From NCBI GenBank assembly GCA_903917345.1, contig CAIXAE010000015.1:1-34049 (forward strand): 34,049 nt of DNA. Direction: 5' to 3'. Of the stretch, positions 12,614 to 26,356 are shown one piece after another; position 1 is the first letter of the stretch; every line of letters starts with the position of its first letter. The notes beneath the pieces were generated by a model. The model had not been told where the DNA came from. It saw only the letters and a program-made list of their open reading frames with translations, and did no database searches. A program made the position numbers and the translations under genes. Source of the DNA: an uncultured Methylococcaceae bacterium. GTDB taxonomy: Bacteria; Pseudomonadota; Gammaproteobacteria; Methylococcales; Methylomonadaceae.

Positions 12614-14089
12614 TTATTTTCTATTAAATAACGCGATTAAGTGTGTAAAGTGAGCCACTTTATCATGTGATAATTGTGGCCACTGAAAGCGCCATTTCCA
12701 ATTCCCTACCGTCGTGCCAGGAACATTCATGCGCGCATCAGACCCTAGATCAAGTATGTCTTGCATAGGAATAATAGCTAAGTTTGCAACAGAGCTAAGC
12801 GCGGCTTCTATTAGCGCACTGTGAAGAGGGATAGAAGGCTTACCCAAATAATCATAAGCATGATTTCTTTCATGGTCTTGAATGCTTTGGGTCCAGCCTA
12901 TAGTGGTGTCATTGTCGTGGGTGCCGGTATAAACAACGCAGTTTTGTACATAGTGGCTGGGTAAATAGGGGTTATCTGGGCCACTTCCAAAAGCGAAGTG
13001 TAAAATTTTCATGCCGGGTAAATTAAAGTCATCTCTTAAGGCTTCAACTTCAGATGTGATAATGCCTAAATCTTCAGCGACCAAAGGGATAGCACCGAAT
13101 TTTTTCTCAATCGCTTTTAGTAAGGCTCCTCCTGGGGCTGTAACCCATTCACCTTTTTGTGCAGTCGGTTCGGTTGCAGGTATTTCCCATGCAGCTTCAA
13201 GTCCACGGAAGTGATCAATTCTTAGAATGTCAAATTGTTCTAATTGCGTCTCCATGCGTTCAATCCACCATTTGAAGCCATTTTTACTGAGATACTTCCA
13301 GTCATAATGGGGGTTACCCCAGCGCTGTCCTGTTTCAGAAAAATAATCGGGAGGTACGCCGGCGACAACTGACATTTCACCGTCTTTGGTAAGTTTAAAA
13401 ACATTTCGATTAGCCCATACATCAGCGCTGTCATAAGAAACGAAGATGGGGATGTCGCCAAATATGAGGACGTCATGTGCATTGGCGTAGGCTTTTAAGG
13501 CCATCCATTGTTTAAAAAAAACGAATTGCTCAAATTTTATATTGCGGATGTCTTCGGCTAGGCGGGTAGACGCTTCTTTTAAGGTTTTAGAATCTCGTTC
13601 TTTAAAGGGGGTCGGCCATTGATTCCAAGATTGTTGATTAAACAATTTTCTAAGCGCCATGAAGAGAGCAAAGTCGTTTAACCAAAACGCTTTGTCTTTA
13701 CAGAATTTGGCAAATTCATCTTTATCTTTTTGTGTAGCGCGATCTAAAAAGCCTTCGTAAACTTTTGCTATTAAACAACTCTTATTAAATATATCACTGC
13801 CTTGACACTCATCACATTGGTCAGAAGGTTTCAGCCAGTCGAGTTCAACTAATGACTCTAGATCGATTAATGAAGGATTGCCAGCGTGTGCGGATAAACA
13901 TTGATAAGGAGAGCCATCAGCATGAGGCATGCCTAACGGTAGGGTTTGCCATACTGTAATGCCAGCACTTTTTAGAAAGTTAATGAAATTATAGGCTTCT
14001 TTACCTAAATTACCCTGCTTATCAGAACCAGGTAAGGAGGAAATGTGCAGGAGTACGCCTGCTCTGCGTTTATTTAAAAGGTTATCCAC
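12614..14089 (-). CDS. malQ: 4-alpha-glucanotransferase (amylomaltase)
   Basis: GH77 enzyme that moves alpha-1,4-glucan segments between chains, used in glycogen and maltodextrin turnover. The 491-aa protein starts RRAGVLLHISSLPG, a typical MalQ opening. The nucleophile region ILRIDHFRG is near residue 290, the acid/base glutamate is in VAEDLG near 338, and the third acid is in GTHDNDTT near 395. The start is GTG (MDNLLNK) with GAGG upstream. It follows the GH57 gene by only 12 nt on the minus strand, so they form an operon. The convergent gap to the MoxJ-like gene is 64 nt. Confidence 0.96.
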   Translation of the reverse strand: MDNLLNKRRAGVLLHISSLPGSDKQGNLGKEAYNFINFLKSAGITVWQTLPLGMPHADGSPYQCLSAHAGNPSLIDLESLVELDWLKPSDQCDECQGSDIFNKSCLIAKVYEGFLDRATQKDKDEFAKFCKDKAFWLNDFALFMALRKLFNQQSWNQWPTPFKERDSKTLKEASTRLAEDIRNIKFEQFVFFKQWMALKAYANAHDVLIFGDIPIFVSYDSADVWANRNVFKLTKDGEMSVVAGVPPDYFSETGQRWGNPHYDWKYLSKNGFKWWIERMETQLEQFDILRIDHFRGLEAAWEIPATEPTAQKGEWVTAPGGALLKAIEKKFGAIPLVAEDLGIITSEVEALRDDFNLPGMKILHFAFGSGPDNPYLPSHYVQNCVVYTGTHDNDTTIGWTQSIQDHERNHAYDYLGKPSIPLHSALIEAALSSVANLAIIPMQDILDLGSDARMNVPGTTVGNWKWRFQWPQLSHDKVAHFTHLIALFNRK

Positions 14090-14101
14090 AAATATGCCTC
14101 G

Positions 14102-15784
14102 TTAATGTTCAACACCTGGTCGCATTGCTCCACCCATACTGGGGTCACCATGGCCTCGTGTAAAGGATTCTGCCAGGTAAGCCGGAGGCTCTTCGCCTAA
14201 TAAAAGATATAAATTAGTTAGATTAAGTCGGAATTGCTTTTCGAAACTACTGACAGCCTCTCCCGGGTTGTAGTCTCCAAACCACCAGAACCAGTCAGAT
14301 CCTTCACATACTGCGAGTTGAAATTCTGCTTCTAGTATTTGTTGAGTTGTTAAACGCTTAGATAGTATCGCTGTATCGAAAACACATTTTACGTCACCAA
14401 GCATATCCCAGCCACGATTTTTATCAGCCGAACCAATCCACGTAGAAAATGTACCATAAACCCAGCTACCTGCTGTTAATTTATTTAATGGATATATCGT
14501 TGAATTGTTGTTTAAACATTCGGAAAAGGTACATAAATCAATAGCGGGGTGCGTTGATAAGCGTTTGTAAAAAGCATTAAGGAATTCATAGCCGTTATTG
14601 GGAAAGTACTCCCACGCATTTTCACCATCCATAATAATTGAAACGACTTTGTCCCCAGGTTCATGTGCAGCTATATTTTCTATGTGTTTAATAAAATCGT
14701 TAACAGCGTCTTCTGCTTGCCATTTTGAATATTCAAAGCCAATCAGATCGGATAAGCCATCATCTCTAAAAAAACAGCTGATATTCGTGTTTATTAATTG
14801 ATAGGGGTGATGTATGTCCATTGTGTTATTAGGCCTTAAACTGTTATGTAAGACAGATCCTCCGCTCGCAGTCCATTTAAAGCCAAAATCACTTAAAACC
14901 TGTAAAGTTTCATTGCTGATACTGCCTTCCGATGGCCAGCAGCCCGTTGCTTTAATCCCGAAATAATGTTCAAAAGTTTGCATGCCTTTTTGTAGATGCC
15001 ACAGAACGCGTTCTCTACCTTGTGGGTAATTCTTTAATTTGGGTAAAGGCGCTTCGGGCATGGCCTCATGTGCAGAGTTTAAATCAAGCAATAAAGGCAT
15101 TATAGGGTGGGCATAAGGCGTGACCGAAAGTTCTATTTGGCCCTTTTCAGCTAACACTTTGTAGCGATTAACTACCGATTCAATTAATTCGCCGATAATT
15201 GTAAACAATAGGGTTCTGTCTTCGAGAGTGAAGTTTGTGGCCTTGGCAATTAAGGCTTGTATGCGCTTATCACTCTGCTTGACTGACTCAGCTATCCAAG
15301 CTAAATGATACCAAACCAACATGTCCTCAAGAAATTGAGTGCTAATGTAGTTTAAAGCATAGAAGTGATGTTCTAACCAAGTAGCTATCTTAGCTAGGTT
15401 TTTAAACGCGAGGTATCGATTGATTTGTCGTTCTTTATTGGCACGTAAACAATCTTTAATTAATTGCCAGTAAAGTGGTTGATCTTCGGGAGGGTAGGGA
15501 GCAATTAAGGCGCTGAGTAGTGGGTCATTTAAGGGGAGTCCCTCTTTGAGATACAGATGGATTTGCTGAACATAATCATCAATTTGTTCTAATAGTATTG
15601 GCGCAAAATTAACGACTGCTTTTGCTTGTGGCGTTGACTCTAAGTGAGCGGCCATGTCCACATAGTCTTTTATGACATGTAGATAGGTCCACGGTAGCTT
15701 AAATTCACCCGATTTTAAATCCCTATATTCCGGTTGATGCATGTGCCAGCATAAGACTAGCTTTAACTTATTTGTGTCAGTCAT
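14102..15784 (-). CDS. GH57 family alpha-amylase / glucanotransferase
   Basis: GH57 enzymes hydrolyse or transfer alpha-glucans with retention. The 560-aa protein begins LVLCWHMHQPEYRD, the family conserved region 1. The nucleophile glutamate is in GCWPSEGSIS (near residue 283) and the acid/base aspartate in IMDGENAWEYF (near 385); HPIMPLL is another conserved block. All catalytic residues are present. GH57 includes amylases, 4-alpha-glucanotransferases and branching enzymes; the length and the neighbouring malQ favour glycogen degradation or chain remodelling, but activity cannot be fixed by sequence. It lies between glgC and malQ, all minus strand. Confidence 0.92.
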   Translation of the reverse strand: MTDTNKLKLVLCWHMHQPEYRDLKSGEFKLPWTYLHVIKDYVDMAAHLESTPQAKAVVNFAPILLEQIDDYVQQIHLYLKEGLPLNDPLLSALIAPYPPEDQPLYWQLIKDCLRANKERQINRYLAFKNLAKIATWLEHHFYALNYISTQFLEDMLVWYHLAWIAESVKQSDKRIQALIAKATNFTLEDRTLLFTIIGELIESVVNRYKVLAEKGQIELSVTPYAHPIMPLLLDLNSAHEAMPEAPLPKLKNYPQGRERVLWHLQKGMQTFEHYFGIKATGCWPSEGSISNETLQVLSDFGFKWTASGGSVLHNSLRPNNTMDIHHPYQLINTNISCFFRDDGLSDLIGFEYSKWQAEDAVNDFIKHIENIAAHEPGDKVVSIIMDGENAWEYFPNNGYEFLNAFYKRLSTHPAIDLCTFSECLNNNSTIYPLNKLTAGSWVYGTFSTWIGSADKNRGWDMLGDVKCVFDTAILSKRLTTQQILEAEFQLAVCEGSDWFWWFGDYNPGEAVSSFEKQFRLNLTNLYLLLGEEPPAYLAESFTRGHGDPSMGGAMRPGVEH

Positions 15785-15936: not shown

Positions 15937-17217
15937 TTATCTAACGTAATGCAATCGTTGTCCCAACATGTCGGGAGTCACTAATACTACGCCACCCGCA
16001 CTGACATGAAATCTTTTTTCATCATCAGCTCGGTTTTCACCAATTATCGTACCTTCAGGGATATCACAGCCTTTTTCAATAATGGCTTTGGTGATTCGGC
16101 AATGACGGCCAATGTTAACTTCAGGTAGTAAAATGGAATCCTTCACTGAGCTATAAGAGTTGACTCTTACATTTGAGAATAATAATGAATGTCTAACAGC
16201 TGCGCCAGAGATAACGCAGCCGCCAGAAACCATTGAATCCACTGCGAGACCTCTTCTGTCATCGTCATCAAATACAAATTTAGCGGGAGGCGTTTGTTCT
16301 TGATGAGTCCAAATTGGCCACGTATTATCGTATAAGTTTAGGCCAGGGTTAACGCCAATGAGTTCCATATTGGCCGCCCAATAGGCGTCTATGGTTCCTA
16401 CATCGCGCCAGTAACTTTGGGCTCCGCTTTGTAAATCTAAGAAGGGGTAAGCATTGACAATATATTTATCAATAACGGCTGGAATAATGTCTTTACCAAA
16501 ATCATTGGTCGAGTTTTTATTGTCTGCATCTTTGAGCAACTGCTCAAAAAGGAAACCAGTGTTAAAAATATAGATACCCATTGAGGCCAATGCTGTATCA
16601 GTTCTGCCTGGCATAACAGGGGGGTGTTCTGGTTTTTCTACAAAGGCTTTTACGCGACGATTGTCATCAACATCCATCACGCCAAAGGCTGTTGCTTCTT
16701 CTAGGGATACTTCAATACAGCCAATAGTTAAGTCGGCTTTTTTCTGAATGTGATCAGCGAGCATCGCGCTGTAATCCATCTTGTAGATATGGTCGCCCGC
16801 TAATACTAAAATGTGACTTGGATTTCGGCTACGCAATATATCAATATTTTGGAAGATTGCATCAGCAGTACCTTTGTACCAAGAATTTTCATCATGTCTT
16901 TGTTGAGCAGGCATTAAATCAACGTACTCACCAAACTCACCTCGTAAGAATCCCCAGCCTTGTTGAATATGGCGGATGAGAGAGTCAGATTTGTATTGAG
17001 TTAAGATCCCGATTTTTCGGATGCCAGAATTGACACAGTTTGATAATGGAAAGTCGATAATGCGAAATTTACCACCAAAAGGAACGGCTGGTTTCGCCCT
17101 CCAGTCAGTCATGTTCATCAATCTTGAGCCACGGCCGCCAGCTAATATTAATGCAATTGTGTTTCGGGTCAATTGACCTAAATTTGGGTCAAATTGGTTA
17201 TTGCTTGGCGCTGACAT
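15937..17217 (-). CDS. glgC: Glucose-1-phosphate adenylyltransferase
   Basis: Makes ADP-glucose from glucose-1-phosphate and ATP, the committed and allosterically controlled step of bacterial glycogen synthesis. The 426-aa length is normal. The nucleotide-binding loop [12 protein letters not shown] is at about 22-33, with [16 protein letters not shown] after it; the substrate-binding FVEKPEHPP is near 190. The C-terminal beta-helix domain runs from about 310 to the end. A short N-terminal lead (residues 1-20) precedes the fold. It is divergent from glgB across 96 nt, which must hold both promoters, and upstream of the GH57-malQ pair. Confidence 0.97.
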
Positions 17218-17313: not shown

Positions 17314-19704
17314 GTGAAAAAGCATTCTGATAAGACGGTTGACTCTGATACTGCAAAAACAATCTCAGATAAAACAGAAGTTAATGCGCCAGATTCTGAA
17401 ATTATCACAGAAGTTAAAAAAGTTGCGCCCAAGCCTAAGACGGCAACAGCAATTAAAAAAGTGGTGAAAACGAAGGTGGGAAATCAAGAAGAAGTTAAGG
17501 TGGCTAGGCCAAAAGCAATTAAAAAAGCATCTTTAAACTCAGGTGTTTACGAATTAAATGAAGATGAGCAAAAAATTATTTCAGCTAAGCATCATGACCC
17601 TTTTGCAATTTTAGGTAGGCATGAAGAAGATCAGAAAATAAAGATAAAAGTTTATCTGCCTTATGCTGAAACGGTTAGTTTAAGTCATGATGGCTCTGAA
17701 TTAGAGCGTTTAACGGGTTCTGATTTTTTTGAATATTATACAGATGCTAAAACACTTCCTGTTCACTATGAATTAACGTGGATTGACAAGGATGGTTATG
17801 CCCATAAAAATTATGATCCTTATGATTTTGGCGTGCAGTTACCTGCGTTTGATCAACACTTATTTGGTGAAGGCAAGCATTGGCATATTTATCAAAAACT
17901 AGGGGGGCATTGTTACAGTGTAGATGGAATTGACGGCGTTTTATTTACAGTTTGGGCACCCAATGCGGGGCGTGTCAGTATTGTCGGCGACTTTAATCGC
18001 TGGGATGGTCGTTGTAATCCTATGCGTAGCTTGGGGGGGAGTGGTATCTGGGAGATTTTTATTCCGGGACTAAAAGCGGGCTCCTTGTACAAGTTTGAAA
18101 TCCTCAATCGTTATACTCAAGAAATTTTATTAAAGACAGATCCTTACGGACAGCAATTTGAATTCCGTCCCAACACTTCTTCTATCGTTGTTAAAGAAAA
18201 AAACTACGATTGGCAAGATGAGCAATGGCTCACTCAACGTGCGAAGCGGGATTGGTTACATGAACCTATGTCTATTTATGAAGTGCATTTAGGTTCCTGG
18301 AGACGTGATAATCAAAATAACTTTTTAACTTATCGTACGTTGGCTGTTGAGTTGGTTAATTACGTAAAACAAATGGGTTTTACACATGTTGAATTATTGC
18401 CTGTTACAGAACATCCTTTTGATGGGTCTTGGGGTTATCAGACCACGGGTTATTTTGCGCCTACTAGTCGACATGGTTCACCCGATGATTTTCGTTTCTT
18501 CATAGATACGTGTCATCAAAATGGCATTGGGGTGATTTTAGATTGGGTGCCCGCACATTTTCCAAAGGACGCTTTCGCTTTAGCACGTTTTGACGGTAGT
18601 GCGCTTTATGAGCATGAAGATCCGCGTAAAGGTGAGCACCGTGATTGGGGGACTTTAATCTATAACTACGGTCGTAATGAAGTTAAAAACTTTTTATTAG
18701 CCAGTGCAAACTTTTGGTTAGAGGAGTATCACTTAGACGGTTTAAGAGTGGATGCGGTAGCTTCTATGTTGTATCTAGATTATTCGCGTGAAGCCAATGA
18801 TTGGGTACCTAATCAATATGGCGGAAATGAGAATTTAGAGGCTATTGATTTTTTTAGACAACTCAATGCCGTGACTCATGATTTGCATCCGGGTACGGTA
18901 ATGATGGCTGAAGAATCAACTTCTTGGCCGCAAGTCACTCGCCCAACATGGACAGGTGGTTTAGGTTTTTCCATGAAATGGAATATGGGCTGGATGCACG
19001 ATGTGCTGAGCTATATGAGTGAAGAACCTATTCATCGTAAATATCATCATGACAAATTAACTTTTGGAATGTTATATGCGTTTACTGAGAATTTTACGCT
19101 ACCGTTTTCACATGATGAAGTGGTGCATGGTAAGGGTTCATTAATCAGTAAAATGCCAGGGGATGAATGGCAACGTTTTGCTAATCTAAGATTGTTGTAC
19201 ACTTTCATGTATACCTATCCAGGTAAAAAATTATTATTCATGGGCTGCGAGTTTGGACAAGGCACAGAGTGGAATGCTAATAGAGAGTTAGATTGGTATG
19301 TTTTAGATTATCCTCATCACAAAGGCATGCAAACTTTAGTTAAAGATTTAAATAATGTATACAAAACACATCCCGCTTTATTTACGCATGATTTTGAACC
19401 GCAAGGTTTTGAGTGGCTTGATTGTCATGATGTGCAACAGTCAATCATCAGTTATAGACGCAAGAGTATGCATGAAGAAATTATTGTTATTCTTAATTTT
19501 ACTCCCGTGCCTAGAGAAAATTATCGATTAGGCGTCCCCTATGAAGGGACATACACTGAGATATTTAATTCAGACTCTAAATTTTATGATGGTAGTAATG
19601 TGGGTAATGGTGCAGTAGTTTCTGAAACAGTTGCATGGATGAATCAGCCTTATTCCGTTAATCTTAACGTACCTCCTTTGGGTGCTTTAGTTTTGAAAAT
19701 ATAA
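17314..19704 (+). CDS. glgB: 1,4-alpha-glucan branching enzyme with lysine-rich N-terminal extension
   Basis: GH13 enzyme that introduces alpha-1,6 branches into glycogen. From about residue 78 it is a standard GlgB: N-terminal beta domain ([11 protein letters not shown]), CBM48 ([20 protein letters not shown]), then the catalytic barrel with nucleophile Asp in [11 protein letters not shown] (near 479), acid/base Glu in MMAEEST (near 533) and the third acid in [11 protein letters not shown] (near 600). At 796 aa it is longer than the usual about 730 because of residues 1-75, a low-complexity Lys/Val/Ala/Thr stretch with no fold signature. The start is GTG; if translation began nearer the core the extension would be lost, but no in-frame ATG lies before the conserved domain, and the coding frame is open throughout. 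glgA follows after 53 nt. Confidence 0.96.
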
Positions 19705-19757: not shown

Positions 19758-21191
19758 ATGAAAAAAATTCTTTTTGTAACCAGTGAGGCACATCCGCTTA
19801 TCAAAACTGGAGGTCTCGCGGATGTCTGCGGAAGTTTACCTAAAGCCTTAGCCGAGCTGGATCAAGATATAAGACTCATTATTCCTAATTATCAAGCATT
19901 GAAGTCGACAGAAAGTGTGCGCTTTTTGTTTTCTTTACGTGTTGATAATCGAAATATAAACATTTTGGAAACAAGATTACCTGATAGTCAGGTTGTTGTT
20001 TGGCTGGTTGATTATCCAACTTTTTATAACTATCCAGGAAATCCTTACGTGGATGAGACGGGAGAGCCATGGGCTAATAACGCAGAACGATTTGCTTTGT
20101 TTTGTCGAGTAGTCGTTGAAGTAGCGATGGATAGAGGCTATCAAGATTGGAAGCCTGATGTTGTTCATTGTAATGATTGGCAATGCGGATTAGTTCCAGC
20201 GCTTTTATCCTTGGAGCAGGATAGGCCTGCGACCTTATTTACTATTCATAATATGGCTTATCAAGGTTTATTTCCTGTCAGTGAAGTGGCTTTATTGAAT
20301 CTCCCCGGTCAATTATGGCACCCAGAGGGACTTGAATTTCATAGTAAATTATCTTTTATTAAGGGCGGCTTGGTTTATTCGGATTACATAACGACGGTCA
20401 GTCCCACTTATGCTACAGAGATTCAGACGGCTGAATACGGTTATGGTCTTGAAGGATTGTTGGAGCATCGTAAAGAGTCTTTGGGTGGGATTATAAATGG
20501 TATTGATTTAGATCAGTGGGATCCAGAAACAGATGCGTATCTCACACATAATTTTTCGATAACTACGCTTGATCAAAAGCGCCTAAATAAGAAAGAGTTG
20601 CAAACGAGATTTTCATTGCCGATTAACGAAAATGTGCCATTGTTTGGTTTGATTGGGCGATTAGTTGAGCAGAAAGGCATAGACTTAATTTTGGAATGTC
20701 TGCCGGAAATGCTAAGTATGAGTGTGCAATTTGTGTTGCTTGGCAGTGGCGATAAAGACTTTGAAAAGTTAGTACAAAAGTTAGCGCAAGAATATCCAGA
20801 TAAGATGGCGATTAAAATTGGTTATGATGAAAGTTTGGCGCATTTAATAGAGGCCGGTTCAGATATCTTTTTGATGCCATCAAGATTTGAACCGTGTGGT
20901 TTAAATCAAATGTACAGTCAGCGTTATGGCACGATTCCTATCGTTAGAAAAACCGGTGGCTTAGCAGACACGGTAATTGATACATTGCCAGATACATTAT
21001 TAAATAATACGGCCAGTGGTATTGTTTTTAATGAGGCCAGTGCTAGTTCTTTATTAGAGTCTATAAAGCGAGCATTAGTGCTTTATAGCATCCCTAGTAG
21101 TTGGAAAAAAATGCAAATCACAGGGATGAAAAAAGATTTTTCTTGGCAAAAGAGCGCCGAGCAATATTTAGCTTTATACGATAGTCTTTAA
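19758..21191 (+). CDS. glgA: Glycogen synthase
   Basis: GT5 ADP-glucose-dependent synthase that extends alpha-1,4 chains. The 477-aa length is normal. The ADP-glucose-binding lysine is in IKTGGLADVCGSLP (K16). HCNDWQCGLVPALL near 137-150 and IHNMAYQG near 165 are the usual GT5 blocks. The C-terminal domain has IGRLVEQKGIDLI near 298 and the E-x7-E type site PSRFEPCGLNQMYSQRYGT near 375-393. It follows glgB in the same direction, and a perfect 12-bp hairpin separates it from the CBM21-EEP gene. Confidence 0.97.
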   Translation: MKKILFVTSEAHPLIKTGGLADVCGSLPKALAELDQDIRLIIPNYQALKSTESVRFLFSLRVDNRNINILETRLPDSQVVVWLVDYPTFYNYPGNPYVDETGEPWANNAERFALFCRVVVEVAMDRGYQDWKPDVVHCNDWQCGLVPALLSLEQDRPATLFTIHNMAYQGLFPVSEVALLNLPGQLWHPEGLEFHSKLSFIKGGLVYSDYITTVSPTYATEIQTAEYGYGLEGLLEHRKESLGGIINGIDLDQWDPETDAYLTHNFSITTLDQKRLNKKELQTRFSLPINENVPLFGLIGRLVEQKGIDLILECLPEMLSMSVQFVLLGSGDKDFEKLVQKLAQEYPDKMAIKIGYDESLAHLIEAGSDIFLMPSRFEPCGLNQMYSQRYGTIPIVRKTGGLADTVIDTLPDTLLNNTASGIVFNEASASSLLESIKRALVLYSIPSSWKKMQITGMKKDFSWQKSAEQYLALYDSL

Positions 21192-21195
21192 TAAC

Positions 21196-21227
21196 GGATC
21201 ACATCAAACTGATTATTGATGTGATCC
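21196..21227 (+). terminator. Perfect 12-bp hairpin between glgA and the CBM21-EEP gene
   Basis: GGATCACATCAA (21196-21207) is exactly complementary to TTGATGTGATCC (21216-21227) around an 8-nt loop, starting 5 nt after the glgA stop and ending 21 nt before the next ATG. It lacks a T tract, so it may be an mRNA stability or partial attenuation element or a protein-binding dyad instead of a true terminator. Confidence 0.45.
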
Positions 21228-21248
21228 ATTGATCCGGTGGTTGTATCT

Positions 21249-22745
21249 ATGAATGAAGTTCAATTGCTGTATGTAGAAAATGTAATTTATAAGAAGAAAA
21301 CGACTCTTATTCAAGAGCTAACTTTTTTTATAAAAGTACATAATTTAAGTCCCGATAAGATTTGTGAAGTGGTGTGGACAGGTGAAGATGATGAGTGGCA
21401 TACACTATCTGCACATTTCCACAGTCCAATAGATGAAGACCAAGAGTACTGGAAAGCCAGTGTTACTTTTCAAGCGAGTGATGATCAGTCATTACCGGGC
21501 AATATTGAATGTGTACTGCGCTATAAGGTGCTTGATGAAGAATATTGGGATAATAATCAGGGACTCAATTATTTTAGTCAGGCAGATTCCGGTGTTCGAC
21601 TGACTCATTCTCAGGCTATTCAAAACATTGGGTTTGATAATAAATTTTATCAAGGACAATGCTTTCTTCCCGTTACCATTGCGGTTCAACAAAATATTAA
21701 AGTTGACGCTATCGTTATTCATTGGACCACCGATAATTGGCGCACTACCCAAAAGACAGTCTGTCAATATAAGCGAAACCATTGGTCTGATAATCAAGGC
21801 AGTTATGCGCGTAACCCCAATCAATATGGCGTACAAATTTGGGGCGCTTTACTTAAAATAGAAGATCCTTTCTCATTACAGTATAGTCTTTGCTGTGAAA
21901 CTAAGAATGTAGCCTACTGGGATAATAATTTTGATAAGAATTATTCTTTAACACATGATTTGTTACGGATCCTTATTCTCAATTTACATTGTTATCAGGA
22001 AGCCGATCAAGATTATAAGTTTTCACAAATAGCGAAAGCGATTGATGAGCAACAAGTGGACGTGATTTGTTTGCAAGAGGTTGCAGAATTGTGGAATAAC
22101 GGTCATGGTGATTGGGATAGTAATTCCGCCAAGATAATCAATGATAGGCTTAAAAACCCCTATTATTTATACACTGATTGGTCTCATTTAGGCTTTGATA
22201 AGTTTCGCGAGGGTGTGGCTATTTTAAGTCGCTTTCCATTGCTAAAAAAAGCCTCAAAATATGTTTCTTCTGATACAAATCCAGAAAGTATTAATTCAAG
22301 AAAAATAGCAATGGCTCAGGTCAATGTACCTTATATGGGGTTGATTAATTTATATTCTGCACATTTAAGCTGGTGGATTGATGGGTTTTCTGAACAGTTT
22401 AATAATTTAAATGTATGGGCAACAACACAGCATTCAGGAGAGGTGCAAGCGACATTGTTGTGCGGAGACTTTAATGTTGTACCTAAATCAGAGGGTTATG
22501 ATTTAGTGGTCAAAGAAGGGTACGAGGATGTTGTTAATCATGTGCAAAGTAGTCTTGAAAATAGTTTTAAAGTGACTGATCACTATTGGCGAGATTATCC
22601 TGCTGAGGATCATCGTATTGATTATGTTTTTATGAAGACACAAAGTGCTTTGCAAACTGTTTCTGTAAGGCCCATATTTACTGAGCATGATTATGGTCGT
22701 GTGTCTGATCATTGTGGATATTTAATGACGTTTGAGCCAAAGTAA
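21249..22745 (+). CDS. Tandem CBM21-like glycogen-binding domains fused to an EEP phosphodiesterase/phosphatase domain
   Basis: 498 aa from the ATG at 21249; a GGTGG ribosome site (21235-21239) favours it over the in-frame GTG at 21237. Residues about 1-112 and 125-236 are two domains that each look like CBM21: strands with W (VVWTGEDDEWHTL; IVIHWTTDNWRTTQ) and a closing motif, EYWDNNQGLNYF at about 98-109 and AYWDNNFDKNYSL at about 222-234. YWDNN.GKNY is the hallmark of the CBM21 of eukaryotic glycogen-targeting PP1 subunits. Residues about 240-498 are an endonuclease/exonuclease/phosphatase fold with every catalytic motif: ILNLH, CLQE (near 277), REGVAILSRFP (320-330), SAHLSWW (His near 372), CGDFN (near 406-409), HRIDYVF (near 456) and SDH (486-488). 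No signal peptide, so cytoplasmic. It follows glgA; substrate unknown, perhaps phosphorylated glucan, lipid or nucleic acid. Confidence 0.88.
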   Translation: MNEVQLLYVENVIYKKKTTLIQELTFFIKVHNLSPDKICEVVWTGEDDEWHTLSAHFHSPIDEDQEYWKASVTFQASDDQSLPGNIECVLRYKVLDEEYWDNNQGLNYFSQADSGVRLTHSQAIQNIGFDNKFYQGQCFLPVTIAVQQNIKVDAIVIHWTTDNWRTTQKTVCQYKRNHWSDNQGSYARNPNQYGVQIWGALLKIEDPFSLQYSLCCETKNVAYWDNNFDKNYSLTHDLLRILILNLHCYQEADQDYKFSQIAKAIDEQQVDVICLQEVAELWNNGHGDWDSNSAKIINDRLKNPYYLYTDWSHLGFDKFREGVAILSRFPLLKKASKYVSSDTNPESINSRKIAMAQVNVPYMGLINLYSAHLSWWIDGFSEQFNNLNVWATTQHSGEVQATLLCGDFNVVPKSEGYDLVVKEGYEDVVNHVQSSLENSFKVTDHYWRDYPAEDHRIDYVFMKTQSALQTVSVRPIFTEHDYGRVSDHCGYLMTFEPK

Positions 22746-22767: not shown

Positions 22768-24363
22768 ATGCCAATAGCAGAGCATTACGCCATGCCACTT
22801 GCTGGGGTGTTGGGTGGTTACTTCCAAAGAGTAAATGATTTTAATGATAAATTTCAGGTGCGATGGGGAAAGATAGATTTTGATGTTTTTTATGGCACCC
22901 AAGTTAATGTAAAAACTGTCTTAAAAGTTTATCGAGAAGCCGGGCTTTGCGAAACTTATTTAGTAGACACAGATGCCTATGATATTCAATGGAATCGACA
23001 TAAGCGCCGAACTAGAGATTTTTATATTTTGCCGTGGTCTAAACACTTCGGACATATCAACTGCATTAAGTTTTCTTATATTATTCATTTAGGTGAGCGG
23101 TCAATAGCCTCGCAAAATGAATATATCTATATGGATGGTCATCATATCCGTAGCGATGATGATCAACATCGACACATTTCTCATGAGTATTGCATTCATA
23201 ATTCTTTTTATACGCATGAGTTAAATGCTGGGCAACTGCAGAGTGATGCCGATTGGTATAACCATCATTTCGACACTCTAAATTTGACGCCAAAGTTTAC
23301 TAAAGGCCAGCAATATCATCCTTACCACCCTAAACGATATCTTCATGATCATATAGATAAAGTCATACGAAGTAAGTGGGAAAACCCAGAGCGCTTGTGC
23401 ACTATAAAAGTGAGCGTGGATTGTATTGATGATACGGATTTCACAGCCCATTTGATCTATGCAAGTCATCAGGGAGTCTTGGTTCAGTGCATTGTCGATT
23501 GGCGAAAAATGACCTTAACAAATAGTGATAATTACGCACACTTAAAGTCTGCAAACGTAGAGTTAATTGGCGTATTTTGTACGCCTAAGCATCATTTGAT
23601 AGAAGTTGAGCCCGATATGCATACTAAGTTTGTCATTTTTAATGATGAAGATTGTATTCTGGGTTCGTTTAATATTACTTTTGATCGATGGTGGGCTAAT
23701 TGGGAATCAGGGATGACATTTCATTCCAAAGGCGTGTGTCGATTGTTGGATAATATTTTTCAGAGTCAGCGAGGGGGCGTGAATCAAAGATATGGAATTG
23801 ATCCACTCAGTCACTTTAATTTACTCTACACTTTTGGGCGTCAGATGTTGCTGAATGGCAAGCCTTATAGGCCACATCATGCTATTTTGGCTGAAGTACA
23901 TCGTGCCAAGCATTCCATTAAATTATGTTTATTTTTGATGGGTGATTTATTAGGCGAGCATCATGATAGTGTGGTCGATGCCTTAATACATGCGAAAAAT
24001 CGTGGGGTAGATGTACATATTCTTTTCAATGGACATCTCGCTAGGCAGGGTAAGATTGGTGTTGAGCGATCAATGTCAGATGAGTTGCAACGACCCTTAT
24101 TGCCATCAATACAGCATTTAAAAAACTCAGGCATTAGTGTGGGTTTGGTCTATGGTCAAGACGATCATCGTGTACCGTACTCACCGATTCATTCAAAATA
24201 CTGCGTTATCGATGAAACCGTAGTGTTAGAGGGTAGTTTTAATTGGTACAACACCTCGGTTTTTTCGCATGATTTATTAGTGATAGTTAATAATCATAAA
24301 GTAGCACAACCGTATCTTTATGAGTTTCAGCAGATACAAAACTCCTTTAGAGTTTATTACTAA
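22768..24363 (+). CDS. Phospholipase D-like protein with two HKD motifs
   Basis: The 531-aa protein has two PLD half-sites: MHTKFVIFNDEDCILGSFN (His285, Lys287) and IHSKYCVIDETVVLEGSFNW (His475, Lys477), so it can form a complete active site for phosphodiester hydrolysis or transfer. The N-terminal 200 residues are not PLD; they are rich in His, Tyr and Asp and probably a beta-rich domain, which I do not recognise. No signal peptide or membrane segment is seen, unlike cardiolipin synthases. It starts 22 nt after the CBM21-EEP stop and is surely cotranscribed with it. Two unrelated phosphodiester-type enzymes side by side after glgA suggest a shared substrate, which may be glucan-linked. Confidence 0.85.
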   Translation: MPIAEHYAMPLAGVLGGYFQRVNDFNDKFQVRWGKIDFDVFYGTQVNVKTVLKVYREAGLCETYLVDTDAYDIQWNRHKRRTRDFYILPWSKHFGHINCIKFSYIIHLGERSIASQNEYIYMDGHHIRSDDDQHRHISHEYCIHNSFYTHELNAGQLQSDADWYNHHFDTLNLTPKFTKGQQYHPYHPKRYLHDHIDKVIRSKWENPERLCTIKVSVDCIDDTDFTAHLIYASHQGVLVQCIVDWRKMTLTNSDNYAHLKSANVELIGVFCTPKHHLIEVEPDMHTKFVIFNDEDCILGSFNITFDRWWANWESGMTFHSKGVCRLLDNIFQSQRGGVNQRYGIDPLSHFNLLYTFGRQMLLNGKPYRPHHAILAEVHRAKHSIKLCLFLMGDLLGEHHDSVVDALIHAKNRGVDVHILFNGHLARQGKIGVERSMSDELQRPLLPSIQHLKNSGISVGLVYGQDDHRVPYSPIHSKYCVIDETVVLEGSFNWYNTSVFSHDLLVIVNNHKVAQPYLYEFQQIQNSFRVYY

Positions 24364-24581: not shown

Positions 24582-25544
24582 ATGGCTGTAACGCAATACG
24601 AATTTGATCCAAGTTATGGATATACGTTAGAAACTTTACTCAATGTGAGTGCGCCTAAGGAGCCTAAAGATTTTGATGCATTTTGGGAGCAGCGATATCA
24701 AAGAGCATTAAAAATTGATGCAAATCCACAAACAAAGCTTATTTCTGAGAACACGTCTGGCTGGCAGGTGTTAGGAATACGTTATACATCAACAGATAAT
24801 TTTATTATTCGAGGCTGGTTATTATTACCAGCTTCTGGTGTTATTAAGAGAGGCTTTGTTGTGGGTCATGGGTATGGTGGTTGTGATGGTCCTGAGCTTA
24901 AATTTCCTTTTAAAGATGCAGCAATACTCTTCCTATGCTTTAGGGGGTTGGCACTTAGCGCACATCCAGAAATATCCTCAGAACCTTACTGGCATGTTTT
25001 GCACAATATTGATGAAAAAGACAAATACATATTGGGTGGCTGTGTTGAGGATGTATGGCTAGGCGTTAGTGCATTATTATCTTTGTTCCCCTTTTTGTCG
25101 GGACATATTGGGTACATGGGTATTAGTTTTAGTGGGGGTATTGGAGCATTAGCGTTGGCATGGGATGATCGAATTAGCAAAGGACATTTAAATGTCCCCA
25201 CTTTTGGTAACCAAGTATTGCGCTTAAGGCTTCAAACACATGGAAGTGCCTATAGTGTTCAGCAATATTATTTAAGTCATAAAAAACAGACGATTAAGGT
25301 TTTGCGTTATTACGATGCGGCTATTGCAGCTAAGCGTATTAAGATGCCCGTTCATTTTGCTTGCGCACAATTTGATCCTTGTGTTGCCCCGCCGGGGCAG
25401 TTCGCCATTTGTAACTCAGTGGGATCAGAAAAACAACTCTATACTCTAGAGGCGGGTCATCATGATTACCCTAATAAGCATCATCAAGATGTTGATTTGA
25501 TGCAACAGCTTGAAGTTTTTTTTGCCTCTTTGATAGGTGAGTAA
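24582..25544 (+). CDS. CE7/AXE1-type alpha/beta hydrolase
   Basis: This 320-aa protein resembles acetyl xylan esterase / cephalosporin-C deacetylase (AXE1). The N-terminal PKEPKDFDAFWEQRYQRAL block, IRGWLLLPA, and VVGHGYGG (near 94-100) match the family. The nucleophile serine is S182 in MGISFSGG, against the usual GxSQGG; the acid is probably D265 in AQFDPCV, and the base one of H293/H294 in AGHHDYP. The usual RGQG oxyanion strand reads FRGLALS here. The catalytic triad is intact, so it is likely an active esterase removing acetyl or similar acyl groups from sugars, but substrate is unknown. It lacks a signal peptide. It comes after the PLD gene by 218 nt and precedes another esterase by 83 nt. 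Confidence 0.8.
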   Translation: MAVTQYEFDPSYGYTLETLLNVSAPKEPKDFDAFWEQRYQRALKIDANPQTKLISENTSGWQVLGIRYTSTDNFIIRGWLLLPASGVIKRGFVVGHGYGGCDGPELKFPFKDAAILFLCFRGLALSAHPEISSEPYWHVLHNIDEKDKYILGGCVEDVWLGVSALLSLFPFLSGHIGYMGISFSGGIGALALAWDDRISKGHLNVPTFGNQVLRLRLQTHGSAYSVQQYYLSHKKQTIKVLRYYDAAIAAKRIKMPVHFACAQFDPCVAPPGQFAICNSVGSEKQLYTLEAGHHDYPNKHHQDVDLMQQLEVFFASLIGE

Positions 25545-25627
25545 TTATAAATTGAAGGGTGGTGTTTTTTGCTAATAATGACAGCAGAGTTAGAAGTGAT
25601 AATTTGACTTTAATATGAGAAGTTGCA

Positions 25628-26356
25628 ATGAATCGAGAATATCATAAGTGGCGGAGTAAGCAATTAGGGCGAGACATGGAGTTGTTGGTCTTTGGGCATG
25701 CCGGTGCAAAAGTATTAGTTTTGCCATCTCGGTTTGGGCGATTTTATGAATATGAGAATTTAGGTATCGTAAAGTCACTACAAGCGAAAATTGAACTAGG
25801 TTATCTCCAGCTCTATTGTATTGACAGTGTTGATGCAGAGAGTCTTTATAATAAACAAGCCCATCCCAAAAGTCGCATATCACGACATATCGAATATGAA
25901 TCGTATATTGTCGAAGAAGTCATGCCCTTTATGAATGAAAGGAATCCTCATGAGTGTGTTATCTCTCATGGCTTAAGTTTGGGTGCTTTTCATGCCGCCA
26001 ATATCGCATTCCGTTATCCACACTTTTTTAAAAAATTAGTCGCATTCTCAGGTCGTTACGACCTAACGTTAAACGTAGAGTACTTTAATGATTTGTTTGA
26101 TGGTTATTATGATGAGGATATTTATTTTCATACGCCGAATCATTTTTTACCGAATTTAGACTGCTCTTGGCGATTAAATAGTCTCAGAGATATGGACATC
26201 GTTTTAGTCATTGGAAAGGAAGATCCTTTTTTAGAAAATAATTTCAGGCTCAGTGAAATACTAAAATCTAAAAATATAGATCATCAGTTATTTCTTTGGG
26301 ATGATAGGGCGCACAGCGGGTATTATTGGAGGCGAATGGCAAGACTTTATATCTAG
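25628..26356 (+). CDS. COG4947-like small esterase
   Basis: A 242-aa alpha/beta hydrolase. The nucleophile S117 sits in SHGLSLGAFHAANIAFRYP; the acid is likely D199 in GKEDPF and the base H229 in DDRAHSGYYWRRM. Other family-like stretches are YYDEDIYFHTPNHFLPNL and VLPSRFGRFYEYENLG. I place it with the uncharacterised esterase-domain group COG4947; members are often adjacent to carbohydrate metabolism genes, but no reaction is established. No secretion signal. It is the last gene of the plus-strand glycogen-linked series; the ribosomal operon promoter follows. Confidence 0.78.
   Translation: MNREYHKWRSKQLGRDMELLVFGHAGAKVLVLPSRFGRFYEYENLGIVKSLQAKIELGYLQLYCIDSVDAESLYNKQAHPKSRISRHIEYESYIVEEVMPFMNERNPHECVISHGLSLGAFHAANIAFRYPHFFKKLVAFSGRYDLTLNVEYFNDLFDGYYDEDIYFHTPNHFLPNLDCSWRLNSLRDMDIVLVIGKEDPFLENNFRLSEILKSKNIDHQLFLWDDRAHSGYYWRRMARLYI

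Follow-up and report, generated by a model that had tools for sequence, protein, structure and literature searches.

A tandem-CBM21 protein fused to a MapP-related EEP domain in Methylococcales, and its PLD-superfamily neighbour: candidate enzymes acting on phosphorylated alpha-glucan

The stretch of DNA analysed here, referred to as the window, comprises 34,049 nucleotides from an uncultured Methylococcaceae bacterium (contig CAIXAE010000015.1). Its minus strand carries genes for a GH77 4-alpha-glucanotransferase (12614..14089), a GH57 protein (14102..15784) and the ADP-glucose pyrophosphorylase GlgC (15937..17217), and these are followed on the plus strand by glgB, encoding the branching enzyme (17314..19704), and glgA, encoding a glycogen synthase of the ADP-glucose type (19758..21191). 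The next gene on the plus strand is an uninterrupted open reading frame of 498 amino acids (21249..22745) that joins two CBM21 modules to an EEP (endonuclease/exonuclease/phosphatase) domain, and 22 bases after it lies a gene of 531 amino acids belonging to the PLD superfamily (22768..24363, plus strand). An 11-bp inverted repeat (21196-21206 / 21217-21227), recognized by eye, occupies the gap between glgA and the fusion gene, with no T tract immediately after it.

The reading frame of the fusion runs unbroken to 22745; the mechanically called start is a GTG at 21237, and the ten aligned relatives have their common start codon at ATG 21249. In Pfam, the protein matches CBM_21 in two stretches (5e-17, 62.6 bits, cut-off 28.9) and Exo_endo_phos (PF03372; 6.8e-19, 68.9 bits, gathering cut-off 24.5). 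Each CBM21 copy also exceeds the PF03370 cut-off of 28.9 bits when scored alone, module A (21267..21572, plus strand) with 35.3 bits and module B (21678..21950, plus strand) with 40.3 bits. The EEP domain extends over 21960..22724 on the same strand according to its match to structure 3TEB (residues 238-492), with PF03372 at 21999-22712. When a profile of 10 sequences (A1; the window protein plus nine relatives) is run against the PDB, it retrieves 3TEB as the best match at 2.6e-29, the next EEP structure reaching only E 0.054, together with the CBM21 of Rhizopus glucoamylase (1.2e-6) and the PP1 regulatory subunits 3B, 3C and 3A (1.5e-6 to 1.1e-3). An earlier note on this DNA, made from the sequence alone, had described tandem CBM21 domains fused to an intact EEP domain and had proposed searches with these two Pfam families; its observation is confirmed by the scores above and by the conservation of the catalytic residues. 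A chance motif is ruled out, given that both CBM21 copies lie above the cut-off, that the profile finds CBM21 structures and that the relevant residues are kept across 49 proteins.

The structure prediction suggested in the same note gave a model of the fusion with a mean pLDDT of 79.5. In a Foldseek search of the PDB, 3TEB again comes first (E 1.5e-18), followed by 4RUW (5.7e-14) and by TDP2 structures from 1.2e-13. The EEP fold is thereby recovered. All 50 matches listed are EEP structures, so that the CBM21 sandwiches rest on the sequence profiles and on strand-rich predicted segments rather than on matches of fold.

All parts of the fusion are conserved. Among 49 aligned full proteins, the EEP residues N245, H247, E277, H372, D407, N409, D458, D487 and H488 (first to last codon 21981..22712, plus strand) are invariant, and the roles of N245, E277, H372, D407, N409, D458, D487 and H488 in catalysis are presumably those known from the EEP superfamily. 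In the same domain, S374 and W375 are likewise invariant and W447 nearly so. In module A, K37, W43, W68 and N102 are present in all 49 proteins, W50 in 48, W100 in 46 and N32 in just 38. We take N32, W50, W100 and N102 of this module to correspond to the ligand sites Asn29, Trp47, Tyr94 and Asn96 of the Rhizopus glucoamylase CBM21; the equivalent of glucoamylase Tyr83 is variable in the alignment. Module B retains W159, W164, W198, Y212 and Y232 in 49/49 proteins, N226 in 47 and W224 in 45. Measured against the window protein, mean identity peaks in the EEP domain (0.64), compared with 0.52 for module A and 0.47 for module B. When a single relative (L034) is compared with the window, dN/dS amounts to ~0.06 for module A, ~0.11 for module B and ~0.06 for the EEP domain, values low enough to place each part under purifying selection; for the PLD gene and glgA the corresponding figures are ~0.03 and ~0.04.

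The fusion is a recurrent feature of the order to which the window belongs. Its protein finds matches in 97 of 201 genomes of the order, 93 of which are counted as carrying the fusion, a number that leaves out G172, G189, G005 and G022 (whose EEP matches are all stand-alone or weak) and includes G193 (truncated by the end of its contig) and G157 (matched over residues 206-498 only). This survey across Methylococcales, also proposed in the earlier note, rules out a one-off gene. No other full-length fusion appears in 369 genomes of the class (13 matched at E<=1e-3, the window included) or in 398 genomes of the phylum (7 matched), and a scan of genome contigs, whose reach is confined to close relatives, yielded nine fusion loci, all from records titled Methylococcales, Methylococcaceae or Methylomonas. 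CBM21 itself occurs in two of the 369 class genomes, the window's own and G219, and among 244 phylum genomes in the window's own genome alone. The G219 match was discarded, as it scores 26.6 bits, below the cut-off, and belongs to a protein with no EEP match and a remainder that reads as unrelated. The glycogen synthase family PF08323 is found in 178 of the 201 order genomes as against 93 for the fusion, which indicates that glycogen makers can do without it, and that the fusion and its PLD neighbour form an addition to glycogen metabolism outside its core.

In order to describe the genomic context of the fusion, 49 loci were compared, namely the nine from the contig scan and 40 picked by hand across genera with no species thinning; L063, which lacks a clustered fusion ORF and in which tblastn gives the order glgA, EEP, PLD, was left out, leaving 48. 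An alpha-glucan gene lies within six ORFs of the fusion in 40 of these loci, the remaining eight being L064, L066, L067, L069, L071, L072, L074 and L087. The position directly after glgA, put forward in the earlier note, is correct for the window, where the glgA stop at 21191 falls 57 bases before the ATG, but it is not general: by manual count, glgA is the directly preceding same-strand gene in 14/48 loci and a GH57 branching-enzyme-type gene in 21/48, so that one or the other stands immediately upstream in 35/48. In 19 of those 21 loci the GH57 gene stands behind a DUF4912-type gene. The cluster representative of the GH57 proteins carries the branching-enzyme C-terminal domain BE_C, and the neighbour families (GH57 branching enzyme, DUF4912, GlgX-like) were each assigned from one such representative.

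A constant companion of the fusion is the PLD-superfamily gene, on which the earlier note was silent. It is present in 93/93 fusion genomes of the order, a co-occurrence that does not count independent events because the genomes are related. In total, the PLD protein matches 97 of the 201 genomes, two of which (G123 and G146) were left out of the co-occurrence count as weak; PLD occurs in the absence of the fusion in G189 and G096 (a partial match with one in-frame stop), and 106 genomes have neither. The PLD ORF is found at a distance of at most six ORFs from the fusion in 42 of the 48 loci. As for the other six, L038 and L080 are at a contig edge, L079 represents an ORF-calling artefact with the PLD gene actually there, and in L055, L074 and L078 the gene is elsewhere in the genome. 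Full-length rows in the order share 69-90% identity with the window copy in the case of PLD and 44-79% in the case of the fusion.

The PLD protein matches PLDc_2 at 2.8e-35 and bears two HKD-type motifs, both conserved in 9/9 sequences of alignment A2: the first (23620..23643, plus strand) reads HxKxxxxN instead of HxKxxxxD, and the second (24190..24213, plus strand) is HxKxxxxD. Its N-terminal ~185 residues (22768..23322, plus strand) match no family over the cut-off and are modelled as strand-rich with low confidence; the predicted structure is poor overall (mean pLDDT 45.7), PDB matches are at 9.2e-5 and weaker, and a search of the protein for a CBM21 profile link found none. The two motifs and PLDc_2 are shared with superfamily members such as NucT, mitochondrial cardiolipin hydrolase and DrmC, but unlike these the protein lies far below the named NCBIfam cut-offs and has the additional N-terminal region. 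The best NCBIfam and PADLOC matches include the nuclease NucT and the defence protein DrmC, the score against DISARM DrmC (NF038319) being 42.6 bits for a cut-off of 133. Like the fusion, the co-occurring PLD protein is strongly conserved and uncharacterised, and calls for an explanation of its own.

The kinship of the EEP domain bears on its substrate. MapP of Enterococcus faecalis was reportedly described by Mokhtari et al. in 2013 as a maltose-6'-phosphate phosphatase; the original work is said to show that the enzyme prefers O-alpha-glycosidically linked disaccharide phosphates, and to describe an operon of malP, phosphoglucomutase and mutarotase genes beside malT. Passages of PMC3737437 likewise present the enzyme as a maltose-6-phosphate phosphatase encoded downstream of malT, and mention that it had earlier been suggested to be an EEP protein without known function. 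In a plasmid collection, 62 records contain a relative, with identities that stay under 60% and matches that span less than 80% of the query in every case. Six of these were inspected, five of them annotated and the sixth (Niallia) without annotation, and in 5/5 annotated loci the EEP gene directly follows PTS IIBC. GH65 and beta-phosphoglucomutase (pgmB) genes lie alongside in Enterococcus faecium and Lactococcus garvieae, an alpha-glucosidase gene in Leclercia and Cetobacterium, and pgmB in Priestia; the E. faecium plasmid locus resembles the operon said to lie beside malT. In the gammaproteobacterial homologue G454 the gene order is GH77, phosphorylase, EEP, PTS IIBC, and the three PTS proteins tested (Cetobacterium, E. 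faecium, G454) belong to NCBIfam TIGR02003.

A profile HMM made solely from nine MapP-type rows, which are defined by gene context rather than by activity and do not include E. faecalis MapP itself, scores the 49 fusion EEP domains at 109.6-159.7 bits. Of 17 outgroup rows, 16 score at most 27.1 bits, although these frames were chosen mechanically as the longest at the match and the low scorers may be mis-picked, and the 17th, G370's protein, scores 130.8. When separate HMMs are built from the 49 fusion rows, the 9 MapP-type rows and the 21 stand-alone paralogues, each recognises the other sets at 77.7-223.2 bits, with outgroup rows at or below 37.6 bits except for G370's protein (130.8-212.3). 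In a tree of 44 rows, which contains just six other EEP rows and for which the program issued long-branch warnings, the three sets and G370 are joined with support of 87/88, the individual supports being 92/93 for the fusion, 98/98 for the paralogues and 100/100 for the MapP-type rows. The cross-recognising HMMs and the tree indicate that the fusion EEP is a divergent member of the clade holding the MapP-type proteins. Identity to the latter is ~28-30%, and at least 85% of the MapP-type rows share residues E251, K257, N292, H313, E321, R351 and W447 with the fusion. A link to glucan is not universal in the clade, to judge from the varied neighbours of the stand-alone paralogues, for which no neighbour cluster is common to more than four of 20 loci.

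On these grounds, the explanation towards which we lean, by a modest degree, is that the fusion is a glycogen-docked phosphomonoesterase of the MapP type that takes phosphate off alpha-glucan and shares its pathway with the PLD protein. The two CBM21 modules would hold the enzyme on glycogen, while the EEP domain, using the metal-dependent mechanism of its superfamily and residues in the roles established there, would hydrolyse phosphate esters carried by alpha-1,4-glucan chains. The kinship with MapP-type proteins favours a sugar phosphomonoester on alpha-glucan as the substrate. PTS EIIC was looked for in the window's genome and none matched, so a PTS-made MapP substrate is not expected there and was set aside; together with the polymer-binding CBM21 modules, this result points to glycogen or its fragments. 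The likely target would be glucosyl C6-phosphate on glycogen, arising from side reactions of synthesis, or the same group on released maltodextrins. A glucan dikinase was considered as a source of phosphate, and the sole PPDK_N protein of the window's genome reads, as far as its sequence tells, as a PEP synthase. Since the genome has a protein of the glycogen phosphorylase family and a PPDK_N protein of this kind, glucan phosphate, if present, probably stems from side reactions and from no plant-type dikinase. The PLD protein may belong to this pathway and might, for instance, cleave a phosphodiester to yield the monoester that the EEP domain removes, a role that is speculation based on co-occurrence and superfamily membership.

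The interpretation offered in the earlier note is partly supported. Its proposal of a glycogen-docked hydrolase with an unrelated catalytic fold fits the conserved residues and the alpha-glucan context of 40/48 loci, and its open list of substrates (phosphorylated glucan, phosphodiester-linked glucan, nucleic acid or lipid) narrows through the MapP kinship in favour of a monoester on alpha-glucan. Several observations speak against the MapP-type phosphomonoesterase explanation, namely the low identity to MapP-type proteins (~28-30%), the 8/48 loci with no alpha-glucan gene and the varied contexts of the paralogues in the EEP clade. To these may be added that TDP2, a DNA phosphodiesterase, provides the next fold matches after 3TEB and 4RUW, that among the CBM21 ligand positions N32 is kept in 38/49 proteins and the Tyr83 equivalent varies, and that many genomes of the order have the glycogen synthase family without the fusion/PLD module. 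Bacteria may also meet low or no glucan phosphate, as suggested in passages of PMC13011383. A wider proposal is put forward only tentatively, and we regard it as rather doubtful: that methanotroph glycogen carries covalent phosphate managed by a two-enzyme module, a PLD-fold protein and a glycogen-docked EEP enzyme of the MapP clade, which would have originated independently of laforin and SEX4 and would be the first case of glucan-phosphate removal in prokaryotes.

The comparison with known systems brings out what is distinctive in the fusion. MapP and the MapP-like 3TEB of Leptotrichia buccalis share with it the EEP catalytic residues, the clade (87/88) and an alpha-glucan metabolic context, whereas the fusion adds two CBM21 modules and a PLD partner, and MapP, unlike the fusion, is encoded with a maltose PTS. 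Like the eukaryotic glucan phosphatases laforin and SEX4, the fusion joins a glucan-binding module to a phosphatase-type domain in one chain, but its catalytic fold is EEP, and it has CBM21 where laforin has CBM20. A dual-specificity phosphatase domain gave no Pfam match in the fusion at E up to 1, which excludes it from the laforin/SEX4 family. The PP1 glycogen-targeting subunits (PPP1R3 family) also have CBM21, module B being closest in the PDB to R3B and R3C; these subunits recruit a separate phosphatase that acts on proteins, whereas in the fusion a catalytic domain with a different fold is part of the chain itself.

If the fusion works as proposed, it would represent a fold-unrelated bacterial counterpart of laforin and SEX4. 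A 2025 abstract (PMC12834914) calls laforin the only known glycogen phosphatase, and a bacterial glucan phosphatase was judged unlikely in 2009, in passages of PMC2714694, because such fusions were lacking. According to passages of PMC13011383, bacteria lack laforin and may have glycogen with hardly any phosphate or none. The available passages of PMC11046441 contain no occurrence of CBM21 or of laforin, nothing bearing on the fusion was found in those of PMC12706056 or in PMC3737153 and PMC8950772, and a search of the open-licence literature with narrow terms found no published description of the CBM21-CBM21-EEP architecture. Many methanotrophs have a predicted glycogen-gripping, phosphatase-like enzyme, a hint that stored glycogen may be dephosphorylated in some bacteria. 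The fusion is widely kept and combines a laforin-like layout with a different catalytic fold, and MapP, the member of its clade whose activity is characterised, takes phosphate off an alpha-glucoside. Were the activity of the fusion borne out, methanotrophs that can be cultured would allow tests of the phosphorylation of bacterial glycogen, the origin of the phosphate and the reason for its removal, and the enzyme might become a tool for work on phosphoglucans.

Other explanations assign the same two proteins a different chemistry. The EEP and PLD proteins might cut phosphodiesters attached to glycogen at the granule (cross-links, or adducts of the glycerophosphate or nucleotide type) instead of plain monoesters. 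Both catalytic superfamilies include phosphodiesterases, TDP2 enzymes are among the best fold matches and the PLD gene accompanies every counted fusion; on the other hand, the nearest characterised EEP relative, MapP, removes a monoester and we know of no diester of that type in bacterial glycogen, for which reasons we consider this alternative unlikely. A nuclease role, either in defence or on granule-associated RNA or DNA, seems less likely still. Many nucleases belong to the two superfamilies, and NucT and DrmC figure among the best matches of the PLD protein, but its DrmC score of 42.6 bits is far from the cut-off of 133, the fusion has no PADLOC match, and both the MapP-type kinship and the glucan-gene context argue otherwise. 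Nuclease models match the fusion weakly; with 24.3 bits against exodeoxyribonuclease III (TIGR00633; cut-off 99.05), and in view of its MapP-type HMM scores, a generic ExoIII-like nuclease is disfavoured.

A hydrolase of nucleotide sugars that degrades ADP-glucose on the granule and thereby restrains glycogen synthesis would suit the glgC gene nearby in the window and the glgA or GH57 branching-enzyme-type gene directly upstream in 35/48 loci; it is nevertheless improbable in our opinion, as MapP acts on a sugar phosphomonoester and, to our knowledge, no EEP enzyme hydrolyses ADP-glucose. Finally, it is very improbable that the protein is mainly a scaffold whose CBM21 modules position partners in the manner of PP1-targeting subunits, with catalysis mattering little: module B is indeed closest to those subunits and genome G194 encodes a 224-aa tandem-CBM21 protein with no catalytic domain, but in the fusion the catalytic residues are invariant in 49/49 proteins and the EEP domain is the most conserved part (0.64, versus 0.52 and 0.47 for the CBM21 modules).

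The PLD-superfamily protein encoded immediately downstream of the CBM21-EEP fusion gene (window 22768-24363) is found in 95 of the 201 Methylococcales genomes surveyed, its full-length copies in the order sharing 69-90% identity with that of the window. The N-terminal ~185 residues of the window protein match no family above cut-off. On the 3′ side of the PLD gene, window 24582-26356 encodes an AXE1-type esterase and another alpha/beta hydrolase, an arrangement present in six of the 48 loci with a clustered fusion gene.

Upstream, the glgA stop codon is separated from the fusion gene by a perfect inverted repeat with 11-bp arms and a 10-base loop (window 21196-21227). No T tract immediately follows this repeat, which is perhaps an attenuator or a processing signal. 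The glgB product carries a long, lysine-rich N-terminal extension (window 17314-17850), and its branching-enzyme match starts only at residue 180, after this extension. At L054 (genome G131), two glgA-glgB-glgC blocks are present, one on each side of the CBM21-EEP/PLD pair. In 23 of the 48 loci, a gene for a DUF4912-type protein precedes a GH57 branching-enzyme-type gene; the single representative of this cluster tested (L080:5714-6373) scored 35.1 bits against a cut-off of 29.4. This protein may take part in the metabolism of glycogen.

The stand-alone EEP paralogues (L088-L107) are about 280 aa long, show 32-38% identity to the window EEP domain and have no neighbourhood widely in common; at L074, one such paralogue directly adjoins the fusion gene. 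Genome G370, from a different family of the same class, encodes an EEP protein of the MapP (maltose-6′-phosphate phosphatase) clade with a lipoprotein-like N-terminus (L146:7982-8965), adjoined by an oxidoreductase-like gene. Finally, genome G194 encodes a 224-aa tandem-CBM21 protein without a catalytic domain (L150:601-1272; PF03370, 2.9e-19), located on a 5.8-kb contig.
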